A stretch of 32,768 bases of DNA, taken from Microcaldota archaeon. GTDB lineage: Archaea; Micrarchaeota; Micrarchaeia; Burarchaeales; Fermentimicrarchaeaceae. The notes below the pieces were generated by a model. It ran no database searches. It saw only the letters and a program-made list of their open reading frames with translations, and was not told the DNA's origin. Below are positions 113 through 30,023 of this stretch, piece after piece. The stretch is from contig JACCLG010000052.1 in NCBI GenBank assembly GCA_013425335.1, forward strand, positions 1 to 32,768. Direction: 5' to 3'. The first letter of the stretch is position 1; every line of letters begins with the position of its first letter. The position numbers and the translations under genes were made by a program.

Positions 113-420
113 CTGCAGTGGGATAGGTCGGGAGGTTAGGGGTCTCCTGTAATCACAAACCCCCTTCACGGTGAGACCGAAAAGCTGGAAGAGGTTCGAG
201 CCATCTCACTTCGGCTCAGGCGCAAGCGTTGAAGCTTTGCCTTGCTGGATGGAAGGTCGTGCGAACCGGGCTAGGCCGGAAGGAGCAACCCTGAACACAA
301 ATCACCGGAGTTTTTACTCTGTGAGTGCAATCGTCCATGCTAGCAAGTAACAAAGTCCAGCCCATGCCTGAACAACCGGGCGAGAGGGCTCCCATCGATT
401 CCGGTGAGGCCCGCTGCACT
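113..420 (+). ncRNA. ffs: 7S signal recognition particle RNA
   Basis: This is the RNA scaffold of the archaeal SRP, which brings ribosomes with signal peptides to the SecYEG channel (SecY is encoded at 12505). The ends pair as helix 1: gcagtggg at 115-122 with cccgctgc at 410-417. The 5' domain has the ggttaggggtctcctgtaa segment with its TGTAA motif. The SRP54-binding helix 8 is visible as GGCCGGAAGGAGCAACC near 274-290, with the conserved GGAAGGAGC apical region. About 308 nt fits archaeal 7S RNAs. The exact ends are inferred from pairing. Confidence 0.9.
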
Positions 421-481: not shown

Positions 482-600
482 GCCGGGGTCGCCTAGTGGT
501 TCCTGAGCTTCTCAAAAGAGAGGCGAGGCTCTAAAGGGCGGCAGCCTGCTAAGCTGTTTGGTCCAAAAGGCCTTCGCGGGTTCGAATCCCGCCCCTGGCG
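482..600 (+). tRNA. tRNA-Ser(GCU) with a probable 34-nt intron in the D loop
   Basis: The acceptor gccgggg (482-488) pairs with ccctggc (593-599) and the discriminator is G600, as in archaeal serine tRNAs. The anticodon stem-loop is gcagc-ctGCTaa-gctgt (541-557), anticodon GCU, followed by a long class II variable arm and a canonical T arm gcggg-ttcgaat-cccgc (576-592). CCA is not encoded. The D loop carries about 34 extra nt (501-534). Removing them restores AGTGGTA and a D stem GCCT/GGGC. The insert folds as cct/agg plus a 7-bp stem gcttctc/gagaggc with an aaaa loop, with bulges gtt and aaa next to an imperfect agtg/ctct helix. That is a relaxed bulge-helix-bulge, so an intron after position 20 is likely. 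A permanently enlarged D loop is the alternative. Confidence 0.85.
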
Positions 601-17051: not shown

Positions 17052-17152
17052 GCCGGGGTGACGGAATCTGGTCAACGTGTACGCCTGGAAACAGCCTCCC
17101 GGCAAGCGTATGGCCTTTACGGGCCTTATGGGTTCAAATCCCATCCCCGGCG
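17052..17152 (+). tRNA. tRNA-Ser(GGA) with a canonical 14-nt intron
   Basis: The acceptor gccgggg (17052-17058) pairs with ccccggc (17145-17151) and the discriminator is G17152. The 3-bp D stem, long variable arm and T arm atggg-ttcaaat-cccat mark a class II tRNA. The anticodon stem tacgc/gcgta encloses a 14-nt intron at 17091-17104. A clean bulge-helix-bulge forms: ctgg (17085-17088 region) pairs with ccgg (17099-17102 region), with bulges aaa and caa. Splicing leaves the loop CTGGAAA, anticodon GGA, with the intron between positions 37 and 38. It lies inside the operon between cbf5 and S13. Confidence 0.92.
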
Positions 17153-20754: not shown

Positions 20755-20952
20755 ATGATGATTCCGATAAGGTGTTTCACTTGCGGGGGAGTTGTAGCCC
20801 ACAAGTACGAAGAATACACAAAGAGGGTGAAGGATGGAGAGAGCCCGGACAAAGTCCTGGACAAGCTTGGCGTGAAGAGGTATTGCTGCAGGAGGATGCT
20901 CCTGGGACATGTGAACTCCATAGATGAAGTAATAAAGTATGGGAGGCATTAG
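20755..20952 (+). CDS. rpo10: DNA-directed RNA polymerase subunit Rpo10 (RpoN)
   Basis: Rpo10 is a small zinc protein in the Rpo3/Rpo11 assembly platform. The 65-residue product begins [20 protein letters not shown] with the C-F-T-C pair and ends with the atypical paired-cysteine motif [15 protein letters not shown], exactly as the family does. The start is 4 nt after ggtga. In many archaea Rpo6 (RpoK) follows; here a tRNA and S2 follow instead. Confidence 0.96.
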
Positions 20953-20959
20953 ACTTGTA

Positions 20960-21087
20960 GGGGCCGTGTGCTAGCCTGGCATGCTTCCGGCTTCAGAGCA
21001 AAACTCTGCCGGAATGGGGTGCCGGCGACCCGAGGAGCTTCCTGAGTAAAATCAGGTTGAATGGGAATTCAAATCTCGGCGGCCCCA
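20960..21087 (+). tRNA. tRNA-Pro(GGG) with two non-canonical introns
   Basis: The acceptor ggggccg (20960-20966) pairs with cggcccc (21080-21086) and the discriminator is A21087. Intron 1 is 22 nt at 20993-21014: ccgg (20987-20990) pairs with ccgg (21009-21012), the bulges are ctt and aat, and the inner stem is cagag/ctctg, a full bulge-helix-bulge. Splicing leaves CCGGC-TTGGGGT-GCCGG, anticodon GGG, with the intron between positions 32 and 33. Intron 2 is 33 nt at 21035-21067: cccg pairs with tggg, the bulges are agg and aat, and the inner stem is cctga/tcagg. Splicing joins T stem ccgag to ttcaaat and ctcgg (position 53/54). The D stem is weak. It lies between rpo10 and S2. Confidence 0.9.
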
Positions 21088-21107: not shown

Positions 21108-21725
21108 ATGAGTGAACTTTTGATTCAGCAGGAAAAGTACCTTGAGGCGGGCATACACATAGGTACGAAGATAAAAACGCCCGACATGAACCCGTTCATA
21201 TACAAGGCAAGACAGGACAGATTGTATGTGCTGGACTTGAAGAAAGTTGACGAGCGGATAAGAGTTGCTACAAAGTTCATCTCTCACTACAAGCCCGAGG
21301 AGATTCTCATAGTTGCATCAAGGCTGTATGCAAGCAGCTCAGCGAAGAAATTCTGCGAGGCTGTCGGGTGCAGGGTTGTTGAGGGCAGGTTTGTGCCTGG
21401 CATACTGACCAACCCAGCTAGGGAGGATTTTTCAGAGCCCAAGCTGCTTTTCATATCAGACCCCAAGAATGAGAGGCAGGCAGTAAAGGAGGCGAACAGC
21501 ATGGGCATACCGGTAATCGCATTATGCGACACGGACAACTCCACAAAATTCATTGACTGGATTATTCCCTGCAACAACAAGGGAAGAAAATCCTTGGCGC
21601 TCATTTTCTATCTTCTAGCGAGGGAGATAGCCAGAATAAGAGGCGAGATTCCTGAGGGAGAGGAGTTCAAGCTGAAGCCAGAGGACTTCGAAGGAATGAG
21701 CGAGGAGCAAGAAACCTCAGCTTGA
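21108..21725 (+). CDS. rps2: 30S ribosomal protein S2 (uS2)
   Basis: S2 is a late-assembly protein on the back of the 30S. The 205-residue archaeal/SA-type product has YLEAGIHIGTKIKTPDMNPF near the N-terminus, VASRLYASSSAKKF, RFVPGILTNPAREDFSEPKL and CNNKGRKSLALIFYLLAREI. The start is 4 nt after ggggggt, 20 nt after tRNA-Pro. It is the last gene of the super-operon; its end overlaps the 3' end of the convergent lipoprotein gene by 9 bases. Confidence 0.96.
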   Translation: MSELLIQQEKYLEAGIHIGTKIKTPDMNPFIYKARQDRLYVLDLKKVDERIRVATKFISHYKPEEILIVASRLYASSSAKKFCEAVGCRVVEGRFVPGILTNPAREDFSEPKLLFISDPKNERQAVKEANSMGIPVIALCDTDNSTKFIDWIIPCNNKGRKSLALIFYLLAREIARIRGEIPEGEEFKLKPEDFEGMSEEQETSA

Positions 21726-29856: not shown

Positions 29857-30023
29857 TGGGGCCAGAGGGATTTGAACCCTCATTAACAGGTGTCTCATAA
29901 AGCATCTCATCTTTCTTCAATGCTCCAATTCTAAATCATCCCCGAAGGTCATTCCACCTGTAACAATGCTCCTCTATAAAAGGAACTGGAGCCTGTTGTT
30001 CTGCCAAGTTATACCATGGCCCC
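29857..30023 (-). tRNA. tRNA-Trp(CCA) with a 94-nt guide-bearing intron
   Basis: Minus strand: acceptor GGGGCCA (30023-30017) pairs with TGGCCCC (29864-29858), discriminator A29857. The anticodon stem ACAGG/CCTGT encloses CTCCAG before and A after the intron, giving anticodon CCA with the intron at 37/38 (29985-29892). The T arm is GAGGG-TTCAAAT-CCCTC. The intron holds TGGAGC, complementary to G31-A36, five bases before TTGA (D-box-like), placing C34 at N+5. It also holds ACAGGT, complementary to 38-43, before ATGA, placing C39 at N+5. ATGATTT between them resembles box C'. Archaeal tRNA-Trp introns are known to guide 2'-O-methylation at 34 and 39. Confidence 0.93.

Follow-up and report, generated by a model that had tools for sequence, protein, structure and literature searches.

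The window, the whole 32,768-nt stretch of DNA that was analysed, is contig C2 of a 1.0-Mb micrarchaeote genome (89% complete assembly). The ribosomal protein uS2 of this organism is 87-93% identical to four Micrarchaeota records, one of which comes from the complete Ca. Fermentimicrarchaeum limneticum Sv326 genome. The host, near that organism, is a DPANN archaeon with a small genome and belongs to the ARMAN lineage. Between rpoN and rps2, on the forward strand, 128 bp at 20960-21087 read base for base as a tRNA-Pro(GGG) carrying two introns, at 32/33 and 53/54, exactly where an initial annotation made from the letters alone had placed them. The features of the locus are as follows:

20755-20952, + strand: rpoN, RNA polymerase subunit N (Pfam RNA_pol_N, E=6e-31), whose stop codon lies 7 nt before the tRNA
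20960-20992, + strand: exon 1, positions 1-32, 33 nt including 17a, invariant in five species
20987-20990, + strand: 5' strand (CCGG) of the central helix of the first bulge-helix-bulge (BHB) motif
20993-21014, + strand: intron 1, 22 nt at 32/33, CAGAG/CTCTG inner stem, strict BHB
21009-21012, + strand: 3' strand (CCGG) of the first central helix
21015-21034, + strand: exon 2, U33, anticodon GGG and on to position 53, 20 nt, invariant in five species
21029-21032, + strand: 5' strand (CCCG) of the second central helix, which competes with the T stem
21035-21067, + strand: intron 2, 33 nt at 53/54, relaxed BHB
21062-21065, + strand: 3' strand (TGGG) of the second central helix
21068-21087, + strand: exon 3, positions 54-73, 20 nt, invariant in five species
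21108-21725, + strand: rps2, protein uS2 (Pfam Ribosomal_S2, E=4e-32), starting 20 nt after the tRNA

With both introns removed, the spliced product GGGGCCGTGTGCTAGCCTGGCATGCTTCCGGCTTGGGGTGCCGGCGACCCGAGTTCAAATCTCGGCGGCCCCA, with anticodon GGG, forms a full and sound cloverleaf; its D stem has a U10-U25 mismatch, which recurs in most orthologues of the order. Both inserts fit the archaeal rule for BHB tRNA introns (a 4-bp helix flanked by 3-nt bulges). The perfect motif claimed earlier for intron 1 was borne out as a strict BHB, with a CCGG/CCGG central helix, bulges CT^T and AA^T, and an inner stem of 5 bp; the geometry described for intron 2 also holds, in a relaxed form, with a CCCG/TGGG central helix (three G-C pairs and one G-U), bulges AG^G and AA^T, and a CCTGA/TCAGG hairpin deeper inside instead of an inner helix at the bulge itself. 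Shuffled sequences matched or beat the real central helix in 0.2-0.35% of cases for intron 1 and in 1.2% (p about 0.012) for intron 2. By sequence alone the first joint could lie at 32/33 or, with a one-base slide, at 33/34, and is assigned to 32/33 because the BHB geometry selects it, while the second joint is unique. The minimum-energy fold of the whole precursor contains, in place of the second BHB, the T stem and a TTGAAT/ATTCAA hairpin that covers the 3' splice joint of intron 2; the second BHB must therefore compete with both. Neither ARAGORN nor the Rfam tRNA model, the latter at its gathering score and also with matches of E up to 5 admitted, reported a tRNA at 20960-21087. Two other kinds of interrupted gene were considered and rejected: a split or permuted tRNA, since the exons are in order and contiguous within the 128 bp, and a group I intron, whose core typically exceeds 200 nt, since the inserts measure 22 and 33 nt and have no Rfam match.

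Interrupted tRNA genes are frequent in this genome, amounting by our reading to about 15 of some 38. The BHB scores of some canonical introns are not used here. Noncanonical introns occur in the tRNAs for Pro(GGG), Gly(CCC), Thr(CGT), Ser(CGA), Ser(GCT) and Val(GAC), the joints in the last two being approximate. In the window itself, a tRNA-Ser(GCT) with a D-loop insert of about 30 nt lies at 482-600 (+), its joints approximate; a tRNA-Ser(GGA) that ARAGORN misses, at 17052-17152 (+), has a 14-nt intron at 37/38; and a tRNA-Trp(CCA) at 29857-30023 (-) has about 94 nt inserted. The tRNA-Trp intron of other archaea carries a box C/D guide RNA. An archaeal SRP RNA at 116-416 (+) scores 89.4 bits, just under the Rfam cut-off of 96.5. 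Elsewhere in the genome, the tRNA-Gly(CCC) gene (L126, G000:C49) seemingly contains two D-loop introns, of 29 and 33 nt, around a 5-nt exon CCTGG, and two nearly identical long-intron tRNA-Met genes (L017/L018, G000:C14 and C36), near contig ends, represent either a duplication or assembly redundancy.

The initial annotation had proposed a splicing endonuclease of relaxed specificity and a genome search for a heteromeric or three-unit endA. Such a gene was in fact found: the host EndA is a single 386-aa chain of three units, aligned over residues 2-386 with the ARMAN-2 epsilon2 enzyme 4FZ2 (E = 1e-146), and the catalytic Tyr, His and Lys as well as the Tyr-Lys of the ARMAN-specific loop are kept (FRVYF, WVHSKH, VRKTF, SYK), the roles of these residues in ARMAN EndA having been described (PMC12397907). 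The ARMAN-2 enzyme cuts both BHB and relaxed introns (PMC12397907, PMC6379350, PMC4033280). The comparison supports assigning the host EndA to the epsilon2 type, which is predicted to be able to cut the two introns described here. Nevertheless, relaxed specificity is suggested by intron 2 alone, intron 1 being a strict BHB. In addition, the host genome carries a gene for the RtcB ligase (E=6e-180). Across 117 genomes of the class, EndA is mostly encoded in one frame of about 380-420 aa. Several Micrarchaeota with the epsilon2 enzyme also encode a short EndA-like protein (a frame of about 157-235 aa; L228-L235, L237-L241), which appears from its sequence to lack some catalytic residues and is perhaps a structural subunit.

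The comparison of the locus among relatives, for which rps2 served as the synteny anchor in picking tRNA-Pro(GGG) orthologues, supplied independent views of the joints. The tRNA that three further genera of the family (G001, G002 and G007) have upstream of rps2 is uninterrupted at both of the joints of the window gene, and in the orthologues that lack the two introns these joints read CTTGGGG and GAGTTCAA, exactly as predicted, so that the earlier claim that removal of the inserts at BHB sites yields a sound tRNA agrees with the orthologues as well as with the cloverleaf. Those same three genera have one T-loop intron (58/59 or 59/60) where the genus of the window has none; each set of genomes confirms the splice sites of the other. 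In the order as a whole, the tRNA-Pro(GGG) upstream of rps2 has zero introns in G010 and G011, one T-loop intron in G001, G002, G007, G008, G009 and G013, two in the genus of the window and three in G015 (37/38, 53/54 and 59/60). G009 and G010 belong to one genus and differ by a 97-nt intron, so that the change is recent in places. Many relatives in family f8 (L062-L076, L083) have paired introns at 53/54 and 58/59 around a 5-nt exon TTCAA.

The series ends with five introns in G012 (73% complete), at the following location:

G012:C117 (L047), about 1003-1240, reverse complement: tRNA-Pro(GGG) upstream of rps2, read as carrying five introns

These lie at 3/4 (13 nt), 32/33 (16 nt), 37/38 (14 nt), 53/54 (32 nt) and 59/60 (18 nt), and leave exons as short as 3, 5 and 6 nt. 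The five-intron reading was obtained by splitting the sequence by hand, the automatic alignment having merged the two T-loop introns and missed that at 3/4. The central helices, in order, have 4, 4, 4, 3 and 4 bp, each beating at least 97% of shuffles, and splicing would yield a perfect tRNA that closely resembles the one in G015. Moreover, the outer helix of the 59/60 intron has 0 bp before and 5 bp after the other introns are removed; as it forms only once the 53/54 intron is out, ordered splicing is implied. In G012 the Rfam model gives only five tRNA matches, and nearly all tRNA genes found in a 215-kb sample of this genome are interrupted. In the 73% complete G012 assembly a single EndA was found, a 169-aa protein of the alpha type, closest to M. 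jannaschii 1a79 (L198/L236, G012:C81:4038-4289), and not of the epsilon2 type that its relatives have. According to reviews and tRNAscan-SE 2.0, archaeal tRNA genes have at most three introns (PMC4033280, PMC8450103), and a search of the open literature found no published archaeal tRNA with more than three.

A possible route of gain is suggested by the T-loop introns of G014 and G015. In G015, nine tRNAs of different kinds contain homologous T-loop introns of 97-226 nt; a matching 12-nt 3' half lies downstream in all nine, as it does in a tenth tRNA whose short intron is unrelated. In 10 of 10 cases the base of the intron opposite position 57 follows that position (C with G57, T with A57). The core of the family, CCCTTTTCTTT..AAGAAAAGGTCT, is present in 15 copies in G015 and 8 in G014 (L143, L145, L147-L154, L244-L266), and on inspection all 23 come after a tRNA T loop. 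One copy in G011 lies directly behind a tRNA-Val. The exact core motif is absent from the genome of the window, and the family therefore illustrates how introns may be gained within the order rather than where the window introns came from. As judged from the sequences, one intron family has probably spread by copying into the T loops of many different tRNAs of G014 and G015, and this family and the five-intron gene are the more novel points of the analysis. It is probable, on the same kind of evidence, that the tRNA genes of the order, tRNA-Pro(GGG) above all, gain introns repeatedly and beyond the known three, as would be seen in the five introns and ordered splicing of G012 and in the G014/G015 family copied into many T loops.

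The reason why such introns persist could be another than neutral or selfish behaviour. The 3' half of tRNA genes is a usual integration site, and the recurrence of T-loop introns in tRNA-Pro(GGG) across the order would suit introns that protect the gene from integrating elements. This idea, which has been discussed before (PMC3293823), is compatible with a working spliced gene; nevertheless, we regard it as rather unlikely, since intron-free orthologues survive in G010 and G011, and the G014/G015 family, found across many tRNA T loops, fits spreading introns as well.

Whether the window gene works was assessed within its own genus. Both introns are present in all five species, and none of the 73 exon columns varies, against 60 of 201 columns (30%) in rpoN and 198 of 624 (32%) in rps2. 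In G005 and G006 the inner stem of intron 1 reads CAGAA/TTCTG in place of CAGAG/CTCTG, a single compensatory pair. A separate intact tRNA-Pro(GGG), which the initial annotation had named as the finding that would make this copy a pseudogene, was not found in the host assembly (89% complete), where the other two proline tRNAs have the anticodons CGG and TGG. Of the 273 proline codons in 28 window ORFs, 130 are CCC or CCT.

It could be argued that the inserts are retained, either in an expanded mature tRNA or in an RNA with another role, such as a regulator of rps2, given that the gene lies 20 nt upstream of rps2 in a conserved arrangement and that its processing could affect rps2 expression. 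This is very improbable: the anticodon loop would be ruined by an insert between 32 and 33, one or both inserts are missing from several orthologues in the same synteny, and the insert sequences drift. Still less credible is a decaying pseudogene with two random insertions, whose role another tRNA took over; standard tRNA finders do miss the gene, but exons invariant in five species beside neighbours that vary by about 30% largely refute it, both inserts follow the BHB rules and no other GGG gene was found in the 89% complete assembly.

We therefore hold with high confidence that the locus is a working tRNA-Pro(GGG) gene, the sole one found, spliced by an epsilon2 EndA and RtcB. Transcription would take place between rpoN and rps2, probably in that operon; a homodimer of the epsilon2 EndA would cut both BHB motifs between the second and third bulge bases; RtcB would join the exons; and the T stem and the anticodon loop would close in the spliced product. 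From the sequence we infer all of these steps, that is, transcription, cleavage and ligation, as well as the decoding of CCC and CCU codons by the mature tRNA.

The evidence places the window gene as a well-supported member in a known class, that of ARMAN tRNAs whose relaxed introns an epsilon2 EndA cleaves. ARMAN-1 and ARMAN-2 (Micrarchaeum) share with it the phylum, the endonuclease type and noncanonical, multiple BHB or relaxed introns (PMC4033280, PMC6379350, PMC12397907), but differ in genus and gene. The initial annotation had thought the introns unusual in a ribosomal operon of euryarchaeal gene order; the introns were confirmed, yet their setting is not as odd as supposed, since the host is of the ARMAN lineage, where such introns are already known. 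In Thermoproteales (Pyrobaculum), too, a tRNA may contain two or more short BHB introns, spread over various positions, with a maximum of three (PMC8450103, PMC4033280), although these are cut by an (alpha beta)2 EndA with a crenarchaeal loop, whereas those of the window gene would be cut by an epsilon2 EndA with the ARMAN loop. Gain and loss of introns at one tRNA locus among close relatives has a parallel in the tRNA-Thr(GGU) of Caldiarchaeum (PMC3293823); that heterogeneity, however, is tied to an integrated element, and none was seen beside the window tRNA-Pro(GGG). Permuted and split tRNAs share the joining chemistry and the BHB, 59/60 being the joint of the permuted Thermofilum tRNAs (PMC3218864), but the pieces of the window gene are all in order on one DNA stretch.

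The single gene thus belongs to a known kind, and the new part is the comparative series from zero to five introns at one syntenic site. In these genomes an essential tRNA can escape the common tRNA finders. Furthermore, a series of 0, 1, 2, 3 and 5 introns, with the endonucleases sequenced, offers a direct test of the gain and loss of tRNA introns and of the role of the EndA type.
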